Shown here one piece after another: positions 54,105-64,000 of a stretch of DNA of 64,000 nucleotides. The notes below the pieces were generated by a model. That model was not told where the DNA came from, did no database searches, and saw only the letters and a list, made by a program, of their open reading frames with translations. The position numbers and the translations under genes are program-made. The stretch is from Actinopolymorpha cephalotaxi (GTDB lineage: Bacteria; Actinomycetota; Actinomycetes; Propionibacteriales; Actinopolymorphaceae). The stretch lies in assembly GCF_013408535.1 (NCBI RefSeq), contig NZ_JACBZA010000001.1, positions 4,548,850-4,612,849 of the forward strand, written 5' to 3'. Position 1 is the stretch's first letter. Each line of letters opens with the position of its first letter.

Positions 54105-55088
54105 GTGACGGCGCCTGTCGATCTCAGCGTTCCGGTTCGCGAGTCCGCCATCGCGGAGTGGCTCCGGCCGCTCCATCCCGATCTCGTTGCCGTGGAAGTT
54201 GGTCCGCGGCACGCTCTGGCGGGAGGAGTCGCCTCACCGTTGGTCGAGCAGGTGGATGTCGCTGCCGTGCGGTCGGACAGACGCCGAGACCTGTACCGAG
54301 TCGTGGCGAAGCGGGCTTCACCGGCCGAGGTGATCGCCCTGTCCGAGGTCGCCGCCATACCCGACACGGACGCCTTCCCGGAACTGATCGACGCAGGCGC
54401 CGACGAGTCGGGTCCGTGGCTGGTGACGCCTTTCTACCCAGGGTCGACGATGCCGTGGGACGCTGCAGTCCCGGGCACGGTGCTGGCAAGTCTGGCCCGA
54501 ATGCATCATCACTATCTCGGGCGTACCGAGGCACTGCCACCGGATCTTCCCCGGGTCGACGAGTCCTTCTGTCACAGCGCCCTCATGGACTTCTCCTCGT
54601 CGTGGATCCGCGATGCTCAGCGCACAGAGCCGCACCGTGTGCACGATCGCGCTTTGGACCTGCTTCGACGCTGGTCCGACGACGAGCGGATCCATGCCGG
54701 ACCGCGGCTGTTGCCGGCCACACTGCTTCATGGCGACGTGTACGGGCTCAATGTGGTCGTGGCCGATGACGGGTCCGGTCCACCTCGCCTGATCGACTGG
54801 GGGAGCGCCCGAATCGGGCCGATCATGCTCGACGTCGTGATGTACGACGACTGGCCTCCTGCCGCAGGACTCCCTGCGTACCTTCGTGCATGGGAAGCCG
54901 TCACCGGCGACCCACTCGACACATGGCAGGCAGAAGCGGGGTATGCCTGGGCGATGGCCTTCAGCAACGCGATGTTCGCCGGTGCGGTCGCGCTGCGCTT
55001 CGGCCCCACCCAGGCCGAGCTGATGCTCGACCAGGGCGAGGCCGCACTGGAACGCTTCGGGCAACTCCTTACGGCCCCGAGGTCATGA
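54105..55088 (+). CDS. APH-family phosphotransferase
   Basis: 327 aa from GTG 54105; GAGAGGAG lies 8 nt upstream. Kinase motifs LLHGDVYGLNVVV (Asp, Asn) and LIDWGSARIGP (metal Asp). Substrate unknown. It ends inside the convergent helicase gene (6-nt overlap at 55083-55088). Confidence 0.9.
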   Translation: MTAPVDLSVPVRESAIAEWLRPLHPDLVAVEVGPRHALAGGVASPLVEQVDVAAVRSDRRRDLYRVVAKRASPAEVIALSEVAAIPDTDAFPELIDAGADESGPWLVTPFYPGSTMPWDAAVPGTVLASLARMHHHYLGRTEALPPDLPRVDESFCHSALMDFSSSWIRDAQRTEPHRVHDRALDLLRRWSDDERIHAGPRLLPATLLHGDVYGLNVVVADDGSGPPRLIDWGSARIGPIMLDVVMYDDWPPAAGLPAYLRAWEAVTGDPLDTWQAEAGYAWAMAFSNAMFAGAVALRFGPTQAELMLDQGEAALERFGQLLTAPRS

Positions 55089-57230
55089 GCTGGTGAGGAT
55101 GACGAGGCGCTGGGTCGCTCGGGTCATCGCGACATAGCGGTCGACTGCCCCTTCGATGCCCTCGCCGAACGAGTCCGGATCGACGAGTACGACCAGGTCG
55201 AACTCCAGCCCCTTCGCCAGCTCCGGAGTCAGCGACCGGACGCGAGCCGTTGCCTGGAACGTCGAATCACCAATGACACAGGCGGTTCCCTCGACGTGTT
55301 CGGCGAGCCAGGCGTCGAGGATCGACGTCAGGTCCGAAGCCGCACCGTGCAGGACAGGGACGTCGCTCCTGCGGATGGACGTCGGCACGTTGGCGTCCGG
55401 GATCACGGCCCGGATCACCGGCTCGGCTTCGACCATGACCTCTTCCGGGGTCCGGTAGTTGATGCTCAGCGAAGCGAGGTTGATCCGGTCGAGCCCGATC
55501 CGCTCGAGTCGTTGCTGCCAGGACTCGGTGAAGCCGTGCCTGGCCTGGGCCCGGTCGCCGACGATCGTGAAACTTCGGGAAGGGCAACGCAGCAACAGCA
55601 TCTGCCACTCCGCGTCGGTCAGCTCCTGAGCCTCGTCCACCACGATGTGTGCGAACGGGCCGGCGAGGACGTCCGGATCCTTGCTGGGCAAGGCATCCTG
55701 GTCGACGAGGGCCTCGCGGATGCCGTGCTGACGCAACTGCGCGAACATGCCCTCGTCGTCGGACTCGATGAGTTCGTCGACAACCCGGTCCATGCGTTCA
55801 CGTTCGGCCGCGACGGCCGCCGTGTGCTGTCGCTTTCGTCGTGCCGCCTCCGGGTCACCGATCCGCTGCCGTGCCGCGTCCAGGAGCGGCAGGTCGGAAA
55901 CCGTCCAGGCGCGAGGGTCCTTACGCTGCAGCAGTCGTACGTCCTCCTGCGTGAGCATAGGAGCACACATGAGCAGGTAGGCGGGAACCTCCCACAGATC
56001 CCCCACGATGTCGGTCGGTTCGAGCAGCGGCCATGCTCGGTTGAACGTCGTGACCAGGACCCTGTTCCGCAACAGGGACCTGCGCAGCAGATCGTGCGGG
56101 ACCTCCTCGTCACTGTCGTGCTTGTCGACCAGGATCGTGAGCAGTTCCTCCCACACCTGGTCGCGTGCGTCGTTGTGCGGTGTGCCGGGCTCGGCCGCCT
56201 CGAACGCCTCAGCCCAGTCGGCGGGACTCAGCCAGATGTCGGACCAGTGCGTCTGGACCATCATCCCCTTGCCGGGCGGTTGTTCGTACAGCCTGACGGC
56301 CGGTTCGATCGCCTTCACCATGTCCGCGGACGACTTCAGCCGGGCGACGTTCGGATCGGCCTCGGGCGGTACCGTCGCGCCTTCGGGAACGAGGTCCCGC
56401 AGAGTGCACGTCTGTACGCCGTCCTCCCCGAGGCTGGGGAGCACATCGGCGACGTACGCAAGATAGGGCTGGTGCGGGCCGACGAAGAGCACGCCGCCCC
56501 GGCGCTCACTCAGGCGCGGGTCGGAGTAGAGCAGGTAGGCCGAGCGGTGGAGCGCGACGACCGTCTTGCCCGTACCCGGACCGCCGTCGACGACGAGAGT
56601 CCCCTTGGACCCGGCGCGGATGATCGCGTCCTGGTCGGCCTGGATGGTGCCGAGCACGTCCCGCATCCGCGGCGAACGGCTGCTGCCCAGGCTGGCGATG
56701 AACGCCGACTGGTCGTCGAGCGCCGCGCGGCCTTCGAGCCCGTCCGGGGTGAACACCTCGTCCCAGTAGTCGCTGATCCGGCCGCGTTTCCAGCGGTAGC
56801 GCCGGCGGCTCGTCAGCTCCATCGGATTGCCGTGGGTCGCCCCGAAGAACGGTTCGGCCGCGGGTGAACGCCAGTCGATCAGCAGCCGGCGTCCCTCGCT
56901 GTCGGTGAGGCCGAGCCGGCCGATGTAGATGGGATCGGTCTGGTCCGCGGTGACGATGTGCCCGAGACACAGGTCCAGGCCGAACCGGCGCAAAGTACGC
57001 AGCCGAGCGGTCAGGCGGTGGACCTCCAGGTCCCGATCCAGCGCCTGCTGGCCCTTGCCGCCGGGTGCCCGGCGAGCGGCAGCGAGGCGGTCGGACAGCT
57101 CTGCGATCGACTGCTCGAGGGTCTCCTCGATTGCGGCGAAGTGGTGTTCGTCGCGGGAGATCAACTTCGGGTCGGCCTTGTGGACCAGGTGGCCGGGTAG
57201 GTCGAACACGCCGGTGGTCAGTGGGTTCAT
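55083..57230 (-). CDS. helR: HelD/HelR-type RNA-polymerase-associated ATPase
   Basis: 715 aa from ATG 57230. UvrD-like SF1 ATPase: Walker A GGPGTGKTVV (motif I), IVVDEAQELTDAEWQ (motif II), FTIVGDRAQARHGF (motif III), INYRTPEEV and a C-terminal YVAMTRATQRLVIL (motif VI). The N-terminal helical arm (LEQSIAELSDRLAAARR) and the early GRLGL / LLIDWRSPAAEPFF block are HelD-specific. HelD proteins pull RNA polymerase from DNA; HelR also displaces rifamycins. The RAE-like site in its leader supports the HelR reading. Confidence 0.85.
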   Translation of the reverse strand: MNPLTTGVFDLPGHLVHKADPKLISRDEHHFAAIEETLEQSIAELSDRLAAARRAPGGKGQQALDRDLEVHRLTARLRTLRRFGLDLCLGHIVTADQTDPIYIGRLGLTDSEGRRLLIDWRSPAAEPFFGATHGNPMELTSRRRYRWKRGRISDYWDEVFTPDGLEGRAALDDQSAFIASLGSSRSPRMRDVLGTIQADQDAIIRAGSKGTLVVDGGPGTGKTVVALHRSAYLLYSDPRLSERRGGVLFVGPHQPYLAYVADVLPSLGEDGVQTCTLRDLVPEGATVPPEADPNVARLKSSADMVKAIEPAVRLYEQPPGKGMMVQTHWSDIWLSPADWAEAFEAAEPGTPHNDARDQVWEELLTILVDKHDSDEEVPHDLLRRSLLRNRVLVTTFNRAWPLLEPTDIVGDLWEVPAYLLMCAPMLTQEDVRLLQRKDPRAWTVSDLPLLDAARQRIGDPEAARRKRQHTAAVAAERERMDRVVDELIESDDEGMFAQLRQHGIREALVDQDALPSKDPDVLAGPFAHIVVDEAQELTDAEWQMLLLRCPSRSFTIVGDRAQARHGFTESWQQRLERIGLDRINLASLSINYRTPEEVMVEAEPVIRAVIPDANVPTSIRRSDVPVLHGAASDLTSILDAWLAEHVEGTACVIGDSTFQATARVRSLTPELAKGLEFDLVVLVDPDSFGEGIEGAVDRYVAMTRATQRLVILTSS

Positions 57231-57283
57231 TGCACCCCGTTCGGTACGTCTGCTGGTTCGGCCTGTGATTCTGCGGCACGACC

Positions 57284-57305
57284 GGGGTCTTGCGGCAAGC
57301 CCCCC
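57284..57305. promoter_or_regulatory. Rifamycin-associated-element-like inverted repeat
   Basis: GGGGTCTTGCGGCAAGCCCC and two more C. The core CTTGCGGCAAG equals the RAE core as I recall it from rifamycin-inducible rph, rox and helR promoters. On the gene strand the core reads CTTGCCGCAAG, i.e. the centre is inverted relative to the recalled consensus. It lies 54-75 nt upstream of the helR start. Confidence 0.7.
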
Positions 57306-57310
57306 AGTGC

Positions 57311-57316
57311 GCTATA
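57311..57316 (-). promoter_or_regulatory. Candidate -10 box of helR
   Basis: TATAGC on the minus strand, about 6 nt upstream of the RAE-like repeat, so transcription would begin at or within that repeat. No convincing -35 is found. Confidence 0.35.
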
Positions 57317-57322
57317 CGTTTA

Positions 57323-57353
57323 GAAGGGCAAGGAGAACGTTTCCTTGCCCTTC
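57323..57353 (-). terminator. Perfect 12-bp-stem hairpin between the ABC exporter and helR
   Basis: Arms 57323-57334 (GAAGGGCAAGGA) and 57342-57353 pair exactly around a 7-nt loop. It is 117 nt downstream of the exporter stop and directly upstream of the helR -10 region, so it can end exporter transcripts or act as an operator. Confidence 0.6.
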
Positions 57354-57469: not shown

Positions 57470-59242
57470 TCAGCGGTACGACTCGGCCTGGAGGTTGTAG
57501 AGGTCCGCGTAGAGGCCATCCTGGGCGAGCAGTTCGGAATGCGTACCGGACTCGGAGACGCGACCGTCGGACAGTACGACGATCAGGTCGGCCATCCGCA
57601 CGGTGGAGAACCGGTGTGAGACGAGCAGGGTGATCCTTCCGTCAACCCGTCCTTGCCTGGCATCGGCGGCGACGCGCTCGAACAACGCATGCTCGGCGTG
57701 CGGGTCGAGCGCGGCGGTCGGTTCGTCCAGCACCACCAGCAGCGGCCGCCGCCGCATCGCGGCCCGGGCAAGGGCGAGCCGTTGCCACTGACCGCCGGAG
57801 AGTTCGGCGCCTCCGTCCCACCCTGCTCCCAGTGGGGTGTCCAGTCCCGCGGGCAGCCGTTCCACGAAGTCCGCACCTGCAGCGTCCAGCGCCGCGCGGA
57901 CGGCCCGATCGTCGGCCATCCGGGTCAGGTCACCGACGCCGACGCTCTCCCGTACGGCGAGTTCGAAGCGGGCGTAGTCCTGGAAACCGGCGGTGATGCG
58001 CTCGCGGTAGGCGCCGGGGTCGAGCCTGGTCAGATCCACCCCGTCGACGGAGATCCGCCCCGCAGTGGGTTCGTACATGCCGGTGAGGAGCTTGACCAGG
58101 GTCGTCTTACCGGCGCCGTTCTCGCCGACCAGCGCGACCACCGCGCCGGCAGGCAGGTGCAGCGAGAGGTCGGTCAGGACCGGCCGGTCGGTGCCGGGAT
58201 AGGCAAAGTGCACGCCGTCCAACGTGATGCCGCCGGCCAGGCGTTCAGGTGCCGCGGCCGTCCGGCCGGCCTCCCGCAGCGCCTCGCGTTCCAGCCAGTG
58301 ATAGTGACCCGCGGCGGTGTGTACCCGCATCGCAGCCCCTGCCTGGCTGGACAGTTGGCCTGCGGCACTGATCACGGCAGCCGCCAGCGCGAGCACCATG
58401 GCAACGTCGCCGGCACTGGCCTCCCCCGCCGCGACCTGGCGCAGGACCAGCACCACCGCGCCGAAGAACGCCGCCGCGTAGCACAGCCACACCGCCACGG
58501 TGGCGCACACCGAACGGAACAGGGCCGCCTCCACCACCCGGTGCCGGGTCCGCGACGCGGCGCCATGCCGGTCCACCAGGTCCGCGCCGACCCCGTGGAC
58601 CCGGACCTCGGCACCCGATGCCGGGTTCGTTGCCAGGGCGAACAGGTCCTGGGCGGACCTGCGGTCAGCCGCCGTCCGCAGCTCCGCGGAGTTACGCAGC
58701 CGTTCCGCCTTCCTGGCCAGTCGTACGGCCGGAATCGCGAGCAGCGGAATCACCAGCAGGAGCGGTTGCAACCGGCCCAGCAGCAGCGCCGTGACGGCCA
58801 GTTGGACGACGGTGATCGGCCCGATCGCGAACAGGGTAAGGCCGTCCGCGAGATCGTCGGACCGTTGCTTGAGCAGTTCCAGCCGGTCACGGTATGCAGG
58901 AAGCTCGATGTGGGCGAGCCCCGGTGCGGACGCCGACAGCGTGAGCAGGCGCCGCTGGACAACCATCTGGGAACGTTCCCGCATCCGGATCACCGCCCAC
59001 CGGTAGCCGACCGGCGCCAGCGCGGACAGCAGCAGCGCGAGGCCGGAGAGCACGCCACCGACAGCGATCCGGCGAGAGTCGCCGGAGGCCGCGCCGTCGA
59101 CCAGCGGGCGCAGGCCGAGAGCGAGCAGCAGCGGGCCGAGGAACGACGTAGCCACCACCAGAACGTGGAGTACGCACACGACGACGCCGATCTCCCTCCC
59201 GATGCCGAACAGCAGCCGCCAGGTGTGACGCCAGGACGTCAT
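57470..59242 (-). CDS. ABC exporter half-transporter (TMD-NBD), second subunit
   Basis: 590 aa from ATG 59242. Five to six N-terminal helices, then an NBD with GENGAGKTT, LSGGQWQRLALARA, LLVVLDEPTAALD and LVSHRFS. This is a type IV (ABCB/MsbA-like) half-transporter. It overlaps the upstream half-transporter by 4 nt, so the two very likely form a heterodimer. It lies upstream of helR on the same strand, separated by a hairpin. Confidence 0.9.
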   Translation of the reverse strand: MTSWRHTWRLLFGIGREIGVVVCVLHVLVVATSFLGPLLLALGLRPLVDGAASGDSRRIAVGGVLSGLALLLSALAPVGYRWAVIRMRERSQMVVQRRLLTLSASAPGLAHIELPAYRDRLELLKQRSDDLADGLTLFAIGPITVVQLAVTALLLGRLQPLLLVIPLLAIPAVRLARKAERLRNSAELRTAADRRSAQDLFALATNPASGAEVRVHGVGADLVDRHGAASRTRHRVVEAALFRSVCATVAVWLCYAAAFFGAVVLVLRQVAAGEASAGDVAMVLALAAAVISAAGQLSSQAGAAMRVHTAAGHYHWLEREALREAGRTAAAPERLAGGITLDGVHFAYPGTDRPVLTDLSLHLPAGAVVALVGENGAGKTTLVKLLTGMYEPTAGRISVDGVDLTRLDPGAYRERITAGFQDYARFELAVRESVGVGDLTRMADDRAVRAALDAAGADFVERLPAGLDTPLGAGWDGGAELSGGQWQRLALARAAMRRRPLLVVLDEPTAALDPHAEHALFERVAADARQGRVDGRITLLVSHRFSTVRMADLIVVLSDGRVSESGTHSELLAQDGLYADLYNLQAESYR

Positions 59243-61170
59243 GCGGTGACCTCCGCCGTTCCTTCGGAGTCGTGCGCTGAGTCGTGCGCTGAGGCATTCG
59301 TAGAGTCGTTCGTACGGTCGGAAAAGCGCTCGGCCTGGAGCCGGAACATCTCCGCGTAGCTCCCGCCGAGCGCCATCAGGTCGTCGTGACTGCCGCGTTC
59401 GGCGACCCGGCCGCCGTCCAGGACGACGATCGAATCGGCGCGCCGGACCGTGGAGAAGCGGTGCGAGATGACGATCGTGGTGAGCCCCGCCGTGAGCTCC
59501 AGGAACCGCTCATAGAGGCGGGCTTCCGCCCGGGCGTCGAAGTGCGCGGCCGGCTCGTCCAGGATCAGAACACCGGCGCCGTGGTCGACCGCGTACAGCG
59601 CCCTCGCCAGCGACAGCTTCTGCCACTGACCACCGGACAGGTCGGCGCCGCCGGGATAGTGGGACGACAGCGGCGTGTCCCAGGAGGAGGGCAACGCCTC
59701 GATCTCGTCGGCGATACCCGCGCGTTCGGCGGCGGACTCGACGCCGGCCTGGTCGACGGGGACGTCCGGCCACCCCATGGCGACGCTCTCGCGGGCGGTC
59801 AACGGGAACCGCGTGGCGTCCTGGAACACCGCCGCCACCTGACGGCGCCATCCGTGGACGTCGACCGTGGCCAGGTCGGTCCCGTCGACGGTGAGACGCC
59901 CGGAGCTCGGCTCGTACATCCGGCACAGCAGCTTGATGATCGTGGTCTTGCCCGCGCCGTTGCGACCCACGATCGCGAGGGAACGACCGGCGGGTATCGC
60001 CAGGTCGAGTTCGTCGAGTACGAGGGTGGACGGCGCGCCGGGGTAGGAGAACGAGACGCGTTCGAATCGGATCTCGCGGCGAGGCCGATCCACCTTCGCG
60101 TCCCCGACCGGGACCGCGGCGACTGCCTCGACTGCCTCGATCGCCTCGTCGAAACGGCGAAGCGTCGCGAGCGCCAACTCGGTCTGCAGTCCCGTCCACG
60201 CGGACTGCTTGACGCCGAGGAGCCCGGTCATCAGCGCCTGCGCCCACACTGCCGCCTGGCCCGCGGTGACCTCTCCCCCAGCCGCGCGTACGGCGATCCA
60301 CGCCAGCCCGCACACGACGACGGCGGCGGTGACGACGTTGGCGGCGACCGCACGTCGCGGCAGCGGGCTGATCACGTCGGCCATCGACCGCTGCCACAGT
60401 GTCGTGTACCGGTCGCGCAGGAATCCTGCGAGCCCGAAGATCCTTACCTCCTTGGCGACTTCGGGAGTCGAGCCCAGGTCATAGAGGTAGTCCAACCGCC
60501 GCGCGACCTCGCTGGCTCCGTAGTGGTGGCCGGCCTCTGCGCGCGACGCCACCTTCTCCTCGTACGCCGTCCACGTTCCCGCCACCAGCAGGGCGAGCCC
60601 GAGCACCGGGCGGAAGCCCGCGACCAGCACGCAGGCGCCGACCAGCACGATCCGGCCGGTCACCAGACCGGCGACGGTGGACGCCAACCGGCCGGGACGG
60701 CCCCACGATCCACGAAAGGTCTCCCGGCCTACGGTGATGAGTTCGGCGGGACGGGGATCCTCCAGGTGGCCGATGCCGACCGGCTCACCGACCACGCGCA
60801 TGAGCTCTCGTTGAAGCGAGGCGTCGATCCGTTCGCCCAACGCGGTCGCGGTGGCCGATCGCACCGAACCCGCCACCCACACCACCATGAGAAGGCCGGC
60901 CGCGGCGGCGGCCCACCACAGCGCGGACCGGCTTGCCGGCGAGGACAGCCCCTCGGCCGCGACGTCGCCCGCCCGGCCCACCACGGCACCGACCACGCCG
61001 GCGAGTCCCAGCGGTGCCGCGGCACCCAGCAGCACAGTGAACGCGGTGACAACAGTCAGCCCCGGACCTGCCCGCCACGCAACGTGAGCGAACCTTCGAT
61101 AGCCACTACGTGACCGGCGGAGAACGGGCGCGGGCAAGAGCGCATCCCTTCGGTGGGAACCGTTCATCAT
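59239..61170 (-). CDS. ABC exporter half-transporter (TMD-NBD), first subunit
   Basis: 643 aa from ATG 61170 (61167 possible). TMD helices followed by NBD: GRNGAGKTT, LSGGQWQKLSLARA, ILDEPAAHFD and VISHRFS. The Walker B region has AAHFD in place of the usual TAALD, a common asymmetry in heterodimers with one degenerate site. The C-terminal tail is a Ser/Asp/His-rich repeat (NDSTNASAHDSAHDSEGT). Substrate unknown. Confidence 0.9.
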   Translation of the reverse strand: MMNGSHRRDALLPAPVLRRSRSGYRRFAHVAWRAGPGLTVVTAFTVLLGAAAPLGLAGVVGAVVGRAGDVAAEGLSSPASRSALWWAAAAAGLLMVVWVAGSVRSATATALGERIDASLQRELMRVVGEPVGIGHLEDPRPAELITVGRETFRGSWGRPGRLASTVAGLVTGRIVLVGACVLVAGFRPVLGLALLVAGTWTAYEEKVASRAEAGHHYGASEVARRLDYLYDLGSTPEVAKEVRIFGLAGFLRDRYTTLWQRSMADVISPLPRRAVAANVVTAAVVVCGLAWIAVRAAGGEVTAGQAAVWAQALMTGLLGVKQSAWTGLQTELALATLRRFDEAIEAVEAVAAVPVGDAKVDRPRREIRFERVSFSYPGAPSTLVLDELDLAIPAGRSLAIVGRNGAGKTTIIKLLCRMYEPSSGRLTVDGTDLATVDVHGWRRQVAAVFQDATRFPLTARESVAMGWPDVPVDQAGVESAAERAGIADEIEALPSSWDTPLSSHYPGGADLSGGQWQKLSLARALYAVDHGAGVLILDEPAAHFDARAEARLYERFLELTAGLTTIVISHRFSTVRRADSIVVLDGGRVAERGSHDDLMALGGSYAEMFRLQAERFSDRTNDSTNASAHDSAHDSEGTAEVTA

Positions 61171-61254
61171 GGCGAGCGCGACGGTGTTCGGCAAGCGGGC
61201 TGCCGCTTTGGGACACCCGAAGAACTGGGAGAGGGTTGGGCGAACCAGCGACAG

Positions 61255-62172
61255 TCAGCGAAACGCGTTCAGCTCGTCGAGGGCGCGATGGCCGCGCTTG
61301 ACCAACCCTGTAACGACATCGTGCCACCCATGACGGATGGGGAACTCGAGGCTCACGAGGATCTTGGTCGCTGCGAGCACTGCCGCCCCCTCCCAGCCGA
61401 CGAGGTCGAGGATCCTCCTCCACAGCTGCCTTCGGACACCGTCCAGCGGATCCTGGAAGGTTTGCCACACGAGGTCGATGAGATCAGTCGCCCGTGTGCC
61501 GCTACCCGCGTTCCCGACATCCACGACCGCCACCACCGCGCCGTCACGGACCAGAACGTTGCTGGGATTGAGATCGCTGTGGACCATGTCGGGTGACTCT
61601 CGTGGTGGTGGGACGTCGGCACACGAGAGCCGCAGGCGCTCGACCAAGGCCGACACCACCGAGGAATACCCCGAAAGCCCGGCGACCGCCCTCGACAAAC
61701 TCGGAGCCAGGTCCTCACCGAATTCCTGACCGGTGGCGAGCCGCCAGGCGTACGACCAGTGGTCGTAGGGCTCGGAGGCCTGGCCGGCCTGGAGTTCGAT
61801 GATCTCCATCAGCTGCTCGACGAGGGATGGGGTCAGCTGGGGCACGGGAGCCGCGTCGACGAAGTCCATCAGATGCCACACATGGGTGGCCGTGGCCCCC
61901 ACTCCGAGCCAGACCGGGGTTGGGTAACCGCGCCTGCGCATGTGCGCGACCACCCTCTGCGCACGCAACCACTCGTCCAGCTGATGGGGGTGCCTTTGCG
62001 CCCGGGGCACTGCTTTGAGCACTGCATCTGCCCTTCCGGCCAACTGGACGCGCATGGCACCCAGATCGAGGCCTCCGGGCAGGCGACCGAGAAGGGTGAC
62101 CTCTGCCCCGACCACCCTGGCCACGTCGTCCAGGATCTCGGCCGGCAGCTCTCGGACCGACCACCCAACCAT
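61255..62172 (-). CDS. APH-family phosphotransferase
   Basis: 305 aa from ATG 62172. Motifs: MVHSDLNPSNVLV (Asp, Asn) and VVAVVDVGNAGSG (metal Asp, with V-G instead of the common W-G/F-G). Substrate unknown. Divergent from the next phosphotransferase, 95 nt away. Confidence 0.85.
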   Translation of the reverse strand: MVGWSVRELPAEILDDVARVVGAEVTLLGRLPGGLDLGAMRVQLAGRADAVLKAVPRAQRHPHQLDEWLRAQRVVAHMRRRGYPTPVWLGVGATATHVWHLMDFVDAAPVPQLTPSLVEQLMEIIELQAGQASEPYDHWSYAWRLATGQEFGEDLAPSLSRAVAGLSGYSSVVSALVERLRLSCADVPPPRESPDMVHSDLNPSNVLVRDGAVVAVVDVGNAGSGTRATDLIDLVWQTFQDPLDGVRRQLWRRILDLVGWEGAAVLAATKILVSLEFPIRHGWHDVVTGLVKRGHRALDELNAFR

Positions 62173-62267: not shown

Positions 62268-63203
62268 GTGGAGATGACGCCGGAACATCATCGGGCCGTC
62301 GAGGTCGTCACCGAGTTCCTCGGTACGAAACCCACGTCCACGCGGGCGCTGCTGACGTTCGGACCGACGGTCGTCGTCGAGGCGCGCGTGGACGACGGGC
62401 TGACGGTGTTCGTCAAGGCGGGCGCCAACCAGAACGTCCACACCGAGGCCGCGGTGATGGAGCGCGTTCGCGCCGCGGGCGTCCCCGCTGTCGACGTCTG
62501 GGGCGTAGGGAACGACGACCTGCTCCCCGGCGGGCGCTGGATGATCACGCGCGCCGCGGCGGGCCGGACGTTGCAGGATGTCGGACGTACGGCACCGACG
62601 ATCGGGCGGAGCCTCGACGAACTGGCGGAGTACTACACACTCCTCCACCAGATCGCGCTGCCCGGCTTCGGAGCCCTCACCGACGACGCTCGTGGCGGCA
62701 GGCTCTCCTCGTGGTCGCGATGGCAGCAAGGAACGGTTGACGAGGCTCTCGGCTCACTGACCCGGATGGAAGCCGCCCCGCCGAAGTTCGTCTCCCGTGC
62801 CCGTGAGCTGTGCCGTGCCTTCGCCGCCGAGCTCGACGCCGCGCCGGGTGTCCTCCTGCACGCCGACCTGGGTGACGGAGAGATCTACGTCGATCCGTCG
62901 ACCGGCGCGGTCACCGCGATCGTCGACTGGGGCGGCGCGCTGGTCGGCGATCCGCTGTATGACCTCGTACGGTTCGTGGGTGGCGGCCCTGCCGACGACG
63001 AGCGGCCGGCGCAGCTGCACCCGACCATGCACGCGCGCTACTTCGCGCGGAACTCCTACGACACCGAGCATGTCCAGCGGATGCTGGCGTTCTACCGGTT
63101 CCACATCTGTGTCGTCGAGGCAGCGTGGGGCGCTGACCTCGCCGGCTGGACGGCGGGCCACGTCGCGTGGGCACAGCATCTGATGGACGAGCTTGGTGGA
63201 TAA
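62268..63203 (+). CDS. APH-family phosphotransferase with altered catalytic loop
   Basis: 311 aa from GTG 62268 (ATG 62274 possible). APH fold: TVFVKAGANQNVHTEAAVM (Lys-Glu pair), LLHADLGDGEIYVD, and AIVDWGGALVGDPLYD (metal Asp). The catalytic loop keeps the Asp but has Glu where the metal Asn is expected (H-A-D-L-G-D-G-E), so catalysis or metal use may differ. The GNAT gene follows 12 nt later. Confidence 0.85.
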   Translation: MEMTPEHHRAVEVVTEFLGTKPTSTRALLTFGPTVVVEARVDDGLTVFVKAGANQNVHTEAAVMERVRAAGVPAVDVWGVGNDDLLPGGRWMITRAAAGRTLQDVGRTAPTIGRSLDELAEYYTLLHQIALPGFGALTDDARGGRLSSWSRWQQGTVDEALGSLTRMEAAPPKFVSRARELCRAFAAELDAAPGVLLHADLGDGEIYVDPSTGAVTAIVDWGGALVGDPLYDLVRFVGGGPADDERPAQLHPTMHARYFARNSYDTEHVQRMLAFYRFHICVVEAAWGADLAGWTAGHVAWAQHLMDELGG

Positions 63204-63215
63204 GGGACGGAGTCG

Positions 63216-64000
63216 ATGAGCATGACGGTCGGCAACAGCCTTCGCTGCGAGGGCTGCTCGGTCCTCGTGGAGGGTCCGGACCTAAACGCCTTCAGCGATG
63301 CGTACCTCGCACACGTGCGATCCCGGCACCCCGACTGGCCGTTCCCCGACCTGGCTGTCCGCAACGTCGCCGAGGCGACGCAACGTCTCACGGGTTCAAC
63401 CGAGCGCCTCGACACCATCGGCGCGGTGACCGTTCATCCGGTCTCGGCTGCCCGGATCCCCGACTGGCTCTCGTTCTTCGACCACGACGTGTTCGCCGGC
63501 AACCCCGTCGACGCGGTCTGCTACTGCACCGGCCCTCATGTGCTGGGGCGTAGTCAGACCGGAGGCGAGCTCCGCTCCTGGAGGAAGAACCGGGAGCTGA
63601 TGGTCGACCTGCTCACGAGTGGGCGGGCGTTCGGTTACCTTGCCTATGTCGACGGCAGGCCCGCCGGTTGGGTCAACGCCTCGAAGCGGGCCGAGTGCTC
63701 GATGTACCGGATCGGCGACGGGGCGGGTCCGGCCGATGGTGACGTGATCTCCGTTTCCTGCTTCGGGATCGCGCCGCCCTACCGCGGCCACGGGCTCGTG
63801 AGCACCCTGCTCCGTCGCGTGATCGCCGACGCCCCGGGCAGAGGGATCGCGTGGGTGGAGGCCTACCCGTTCAACGACCAGACGGACGTCGACCAGGACA
63901 ACTGGCGCGGCCCTCGTTCCCTGTACGACGCGTTCGGATTCGAGCTCGTGGAAGAACGCGAGACCTACACCGTGCTGCGCCACGGGCCGCCGGAGCTCTG
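63216..64000 (+). CDS. GNAT-family acetyltransferase, 3' truncated by the window end
   Basis: At least 261 codons from ATG 63216 with AAGGGACGG upstream and no stop before 64000. The N-terminus has a CEGC pair. The C-terminal GNAT core is ISVSCFGIAPPYRGHGLVST (acetyl-CoA loop RGHGL), then AWVEAYPF and SLYDAFGFELVEERE. The middle (IPDWLSFFDHDVFAGNP, CYCTGPHV) is not part of a plain GNAT and may be an extra domain. Co-directional with the preceding phosphotransferase. Confidence 0.85.
   Translation, partial: MSMTVGNSLRCEGCSVLVEGPDLNAFSDAYLAHVRSRHPDWPFPDLAVRNVAEATQRLTGSTERLDTIGAVTVHPVSAARIPDWLSFFDHDVFAGNPVDAVCYCTGPHVLGRSQTGGELRSWRKNRELMVDLLTSGRAFGYLAYVDGRPAGWVNASKRAECSMYRIGDGAGPADGDVISVSCFGIAPPYRGHGLVSTLLRRVIADAPGRGIAWVEAYPFNDQTDVDQDNWRGPRSLYDAFGFELVEERETYTVLRHGPPEL

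Follow-up and report, generated by a model that had tools for sequence, protein, structure and literature searches.

Rifamycin-associated elements (RAEs) are known from the leaders of actinobacterial rgt, rox, arr, rph and helR genes (PMC10719064), where the element has been described as a 19-bp palindrome accompanied by sense promoters only (PMC10719064). The helD leader of M. smegmatis carries two promoters, P1 and P2, and its RAE lies over the -35 of P2 (PMC10719064). RAE control of both rox and helR is reported for S. venezuelae (Surette et al. 2022, as cited in PMC10719064). A different arrangement has been described in B. subtilis, where helD and pps sense rifampicin by pairing a weak sense promoter with a strong antisense promoter whose transcript soon terminates; the latter holds the former down until rifampicin arrests it, and induction was lost when the two promoters were made to overlap sterically (PMC12802891). 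For the sensing of rifamycins through the RAE in actinobacteria, reviews invoke an unknown factor.

The window analysed here is a stretch of 64,000 nucleotides from the genome of Actinopolymorpha cephalotaxi, in which helR occupies 55083..57230 on the minus strand. Its product matches the model for the RNA polymerase recycling motor HelR (class II HelD) over the full length of that model (NF041254, 1-706 of 706; 1280 bits, cut-off 750), and residues 29-712 align to M. smegmatis HelD (6YXU, 336 bits). HelR-type gene products free RNA polymerase from rifamycin antibiotics, and a feature of this class is a primary-channel loop that displaces rifampicin. The sequence GGGGTCTTGCGGCAAGCCCC, which the first-pass annotation had matched to the RAE core, is indeed present at 57284-57303 on the plus strand and reads GGGGCTTGCCGCAAGACCC on the helR strand. 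Positions 57285-57303 of it, taken as the element on the minus strand, fit the pattern GGGNCTTGCSGCAAGNCCC exactly; the palindrome is identical to that of the known RAE leaders, which precede the same target genes, helR included. With up to three mismatches allowed it is the single RAE-like site in the 64 kb window, where shuffle controls gave means of 0 (20-mer) and 0.05 (19-mer). The element lies 54 bp upstream of helR, between the start of that gene and a TATAGC box as had been proposed, the box itself standing between a hairpin and the RAE on the helR strand. By exact pattern match and HelR model match together, both the element and the helR leader that holds it are genuine.

Across the 6.86-Mb genome, assembled as one contig, there are two exact RAEs. 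The second, at C1:824965-824983, precedes a rifampin monooxygenase gene, rox (NF033145, 872 bits, cut-off 800), and is the one further copy that came out of the suggested scan for elements before rph, rox or arr; no Arr was found in the genome. The pairing of rox and helR is that reported, through the citing paper, for S. venezuelae, here in another genus and among other gene neighbours. Seven HelD-type genes of the genome were checked, and helR of the window is the only one that passes the HelR cut-off and the only one preceded by an RAE.

The element is retained well beyond this species. It is present before helR in all five congeners sampled, so that absence from close relatives, named in the first-pass annotation as a refutation, does not apply, and the nearest helR loci include that of Actinopolymorpha alba. 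Among helR loci of other genera 77 of 80 carry an RAE, either right before helR or before the preceding gene, which is mostly an rgt-type glycosyltransferase. Among 395 genomes of the class, 159 contain the exact pattern and 3 contain the control, the same pattern reversed; in a phylum-wide sample the element occurs in 30 of 396 genomes. Of 223 non-identical sites 219 precede a member of one of five rifamycin-resistance families (helR 109, rgt 43, rox 42, rph 14, arr 11), with helR enriched in these counts because 76 of the sites were gathered by searching for helR; the 147 sites that the RAE pattern picked out by itself give helR 60, rgt 16, rox 42, rph 14 and arr 11. The rox and helR labels were checked against curated models, and those of rph, arr and rgt are based on similarity among loci and on reading of the sequences. 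At the remaining four sites the element stands before a broken rox gene (L190 and L229), an amidase-like ORF (L248) or a pair of DrrA/DrrB-like genes (L225).

Conservation around the RAE far exceeds 19 bp. When the 223 sites are aligned on the centre of the element (position 0, with sense taken as towards the gene), the strictest positions outside it are A+22, A+24 and T+26 on the gene side and T-22, A-21, A-26 and C-17 on the other. The gene-side bases belong to a CANAAT motif at +21..+26, and the exact mirror place on the opposite strand holds TANNTT. The flanks of the window RAE, whose centre is 57294, form the same block. Eleven mycobacterial helD leaders were added to give 234 sites, and both strands were scanned at offsets 8-59 for ANNNT, a -10 signature. 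It lies 22 nt from the RAE centre on both strands, in 99% of sites each, and the exceptions include two one-base shifts; the next-best offsets are 28 on the antisense strand (59%) and 25 on the sense strand (28%), against a background of 2.6%. The flanks of the sites have a mean pairwise identity of 49%, so the invariance of the block must have been selected rather than being a mere trace of recent copying. Most sites were collected through the RAE itself, and conservation within it is partly due to that selection; of the 76 sites that the helR search yielded, the RAE has no mismatch in 63 and a single mismatch in 13.

The RAE core TTGCSGCAA offers a -35-like TTGCSG to each strand, in each case 19 nt from the -10 of that strand. 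In the window the sense hexamer is TTGCCG (57293..57298, minus strand) and its mirror image TTGCGG (57290..57295, plus strand). The putative sense promoter Ps has the -10 CAGAAT (57268..57273, minus), matching xANNNT at this offset in 232 of 234 sites, and would start helR mRNA at 57261..57262, 6-7 nt past the -10, leaving a predicted 5' UTR of 57231..57262 up to the ATG. The putative antisense promoter Pas has the -10 TACGTT (57315..57320, plus), matching TANNNT in 231 of 234, and would start at a GG (57327..57328, plus) whose two bases are conserved as G in 98% and 94% of sites. The two sides differ at -12, where the antisense -10 has T in 232 of 234 sites and the sense -10 has C or G in 231; thus the antisense -10 is kept as strictly as the sense -10 and with the better base, in all gene families. 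As ANNNT is self-complementary, part of the signal is strand-neutral, and the strand is decided by T-12 (232/234) and T-8 for antisense, by A-9 and A-8 for sense, and by the -35 spacing; these agree on a divergent reading of the boxes. The sequence evidence argues strongly for a symmetric pair of divergent promoters centred on the RAE, with both -10s as predicted. The TATAGC box, earlier taken for a forward -10, then reads as the upstream part of the antisense -10, which it overlaps: TANNNT on the forward strand fits at 0 of 234 sites.

The arms of the RAE are unpaired at position 6 in 83% of sites and show no co-variation there, so the element is read as DNA, and the idea of the RAE as an RNA hairpin was dropped. 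Just past the predicted sense start, +31 to +40 from the RAE centre, GGCCGAGGCC is conserved in sequence with no stem co-variation; it too was considered as an RNA stem and rejected, its pairing being no greater than that of slid controls.

The hairpin beyond the antisense -10 is real, with 57323-57334 pairing with 57342-57353 over 12 bp and the two single strands folding at -14.3 and -17.9 kcal/mol (z -2.8 and -5.0). It had been assigned to the helR leader; the inverted repeat (57323..57353) is better explained as a putative terminator of the antisense RNA on the plus strand (the fold of -14.3 kcal/mol, z -2.8), outside the leader of the helR mRNA. Consistent with this, 136 of 159 stems in relatives begin where the antisense RNA is predicted to start, and the ten antisense-strand positions after it hold 4.8 T against a background of 2.3, the T frequency reaching 0.82 against 0.23 in strong cases such as GGCAAGGAGATCTCTCTCCTTGCC-TTTTCTTTTT. 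Exchanging 3' halves between sites lowers the share of strong stems from 48% to 13%, a drop which shows that the two arms changed together. Strand-specific wobble in the upstream stem stands at 73 to 54 (P 0.11), a ratio as in the null, and does not favour the antisense RNA. The window copy combines a strong stem with a weak T-tail, the T-run after the stem being found in many relatives; stems are rare in mycobacterial leaders and absent from arr leaders. The predicted antisense terminator is accordingly common, not universal.

From the observed symmetry and conservation of the block, and from the observed set of genes behind it, a model of the helR leader as a rifamycin-responsive switch can be drawn. 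The palindromic RAE would serve at once as operator and as the -35 region common to two divergent promoters. Ps (TTGCCG, 19 nt, CAGAAT), weak for want of a -12 T, would drive the helR mRNA, and Pas (TTGCGG, 19 nt, TACGTT), with the better -10, would be directed away from helR, its RNA beginning at the hairpin, a probable intrinsic terminator in many relatives, and ending as a stub of about 33 nt. Without rifamycin, polymerase at Pas would hold Ps low; with rifamycin the balance would shift to Ps and helR would be made, or elsewhere rgt, rox, rph or arr. Both -10s are very probably used as promoters, Ps on the added strength of the published M. smegmatis start sites, and Ps and Pas should be mutually exclusive because they have a common -35 region. 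Exclusion alone gives the wrong sign, since a rifamycin-arrested polymerase at Pas would block Ps as well; the sensor would therefore be a conserved factor that reads the RAE and not polymerase alone, and it is most likely this factor that shifts the promoter balance. The whole, in which a conserved RAE-reading factor tips the balance and the antisense promoter is a built-in brake, is given a probability of about 0.5.

Several observations count against this two-promoter reading. Conservation of the entire 19-bp palindrome goes beyond the need of two -35 hexamers and suggests another DNA-binding protein; 19 nt is a long spacer for a primary-sigma promoter; the terminator is missing from arr and most mycobacterial leaders and has a weak T-tail in the window; pure exclusion predicts repression by rifamycin; and in B. 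subtilis induction was lost on steric promoter overlap. In its favour stands the conserved asymmetry of the -10s across the 234 sites, the antisense one better and the sense one poorer at -12, with promoter activity predicted from these bases. No description of a mirror antisense -10 and terminator of the RAE was found in the openly accessible literature, and an earlier description elsewhere is possible. With an antisense -10 in 99% of sites and all five families, and a predicted terminator in many, the question of sensing becomes cheap to test. If the model holds, inducible rifamycin resistance in soil actinomycetes, and in those mycobacteria that have such leaders, would come down to two promoters competing for polymerase, the drug's own target, and the RAE switch would be linked to the newly found B. 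subtilis alarm. A wider proposition, put forward tentatively and with somewhat less than even confidence, is that every RAE is a two-way promoter switch, a palindromic -35 and operator common to a weak sense promoter and a strong antisense one that often terminates its own transcript, and that the antisense-promoter rifampicin alarms of Actinobacteria and Firmicutes evolved independently, with different geometry, before the same kinds of genes.

The strongest competitor, which may be correct though the evidence leans away from it, makes the RAE a plain operator at which a rifamycin-responsive transcription factor acts on the sense promoter, with the antisense -10 a by-product or in some other role. 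It accounts well for a palindrome conserved over its full 19 bp, beyond any -35 need, and for the near-invariant spacing of RAE to -10 (232/234); the published authors also suspect an unknown factor, and in M. abscessus induction is reported to be lost once half of the RAE is deleted (PMC10719064). It does not account for an antisense -10 that is as strict as the sense -10 and better at -12 in all families. Nor was any transcription-factor gene recognised behind the RAE in 223 sites, so that an autoregulated candidate for the factor is lacking; an RAE-controlled regulator gene as sensor was set aside on the same count.

Polymerase itself as the sensor, in the B. subtilis manner, appears improbable. 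Convergent promoters would then flank the RAE, and an antisense RNA of about 80-90 nt would cross the sense promoter to reach the terminator. The attraction is that the parts are those of B. subtilis helD (an antisense RNA of about 94 nt, a terminator just upstream), that the sign of regulation comes out right and that ANNNT, being self-complementary, may be read either way. The likeness to the B. subtilis alarm includes the targets, HelD and a rifampicin-modifying enzyme, and would extend to a weak sense and a strong antisense promoter (the latter with a 19-bp spacer) and to early termination of the antisense RNA, as predicted here. The geometry differs, however: the B. subtilis promoters converge from 39 bp apart and have no RAE, whereas those of RAE leaders are predicted to diverge from the RAE as a common -35. 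Taken as TANNNT, the left box lacks the -7 T at every site (present in 0/234), no -35-like conservation exists at the required places, the RAE would be no promoter element at all, and the start of M. smegmatis P2 lies downstream, its -35 covered by the RAE like that of Ps in the window. Convergent promoters with separated starts are thus not what the sites display, and the best reading is the divergent one. The other M. smegmatis promoter, P1, about 20 bp upstream of the RAE, is without counterpart in the conserved block.

Upstream of helR, on the same strand, an ABC exporter is encoded by two ORFs with overlapping ends, subunit B at 57470..59242 and subunit A at 59239..61194 (both minus; ABC_tran, MsbA-like), the nearest solved structures to subunit A being of ABCB, BmrA and MsbA types. 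This much of the first-pass annotation holds, and its tandem ABC pair is present; that the subunits form a heterodimer is suggested by their tandem order only. It had further joined exporter and helR into one suggested rifamycin tolerance locus of rescue plus possible efflux, which seems very unlikely. The genes are adjacent and on one strand, and the pair, 82-88% identical, is retained beside helR in the three closest congeners; elsewhere an RAE does stand before DrrA/DrrB-like genes, in L225. Beyond those three, the exporter is not beside helR in two other congeners or in 80 further helR loci, no RAE precedes it in the window, and the 12-bp hairpin separates it from helR. Being neither RAE-linked nor conserved beside helR, the exporter does not qualify as a rifamycin efflux locus, and it is judged a lineage-specific neighbour outside the RAE-helR system. 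The hairpin perhaps also ends the exporter transcript.

Least credible is the original picture in which TATAGC is the forward -10 of helR and both RAE and hairpin lie in the transcribed leader, since, although the left box most often reads TATAGC (167/230), position 6 of the box is never T, mycobacterial leaders with TATCTC, TATCCC or TACCGC in its place retain the antisense TANNNT, and the hairpin would lie upstream of a TATAGC-driven start.

Some individual sites are of separate note. In L225 (contig G483:C34) an RAE block on the minus strand is followed by an ORF at 1379-2305 and then by a permease ORF, matching DrrA (TIGR01188, above cut-off) and DrrB (TIGR01247, below cut-off); this would be a candidate for an ABC exporter under RAE control that belongs to none of the five gene families, the one such case in the sample. 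Both -10s are intact in the RAE blocks before the broken rox genes of L190 and L229. L248, from a genome of the Mycobacterium family, has its RAE before the amidase-like ORF (1740-2414, minus), which is without an NCBIfam match, and has perhaps lost a resistance gene. An RAE match in the viral contig L281, without the flanking block and without a resistance gene, was rejected as chance. Blocks of the same layout occur outside the class within the same phylum, in genomes G082, G103, G160, G181, G306 and others (loci L119, L139, L141, L142 and L147), which suggests that whole leader-gene cassettes have been transferred. Around the helR-exporter segment of the window lie three APH-family kinase genes and a GNAT acetyltransferase gene, at 54105-55088 (+), 61255-62172 (-), 62268-63203 (+) and 63216-63998 (+).
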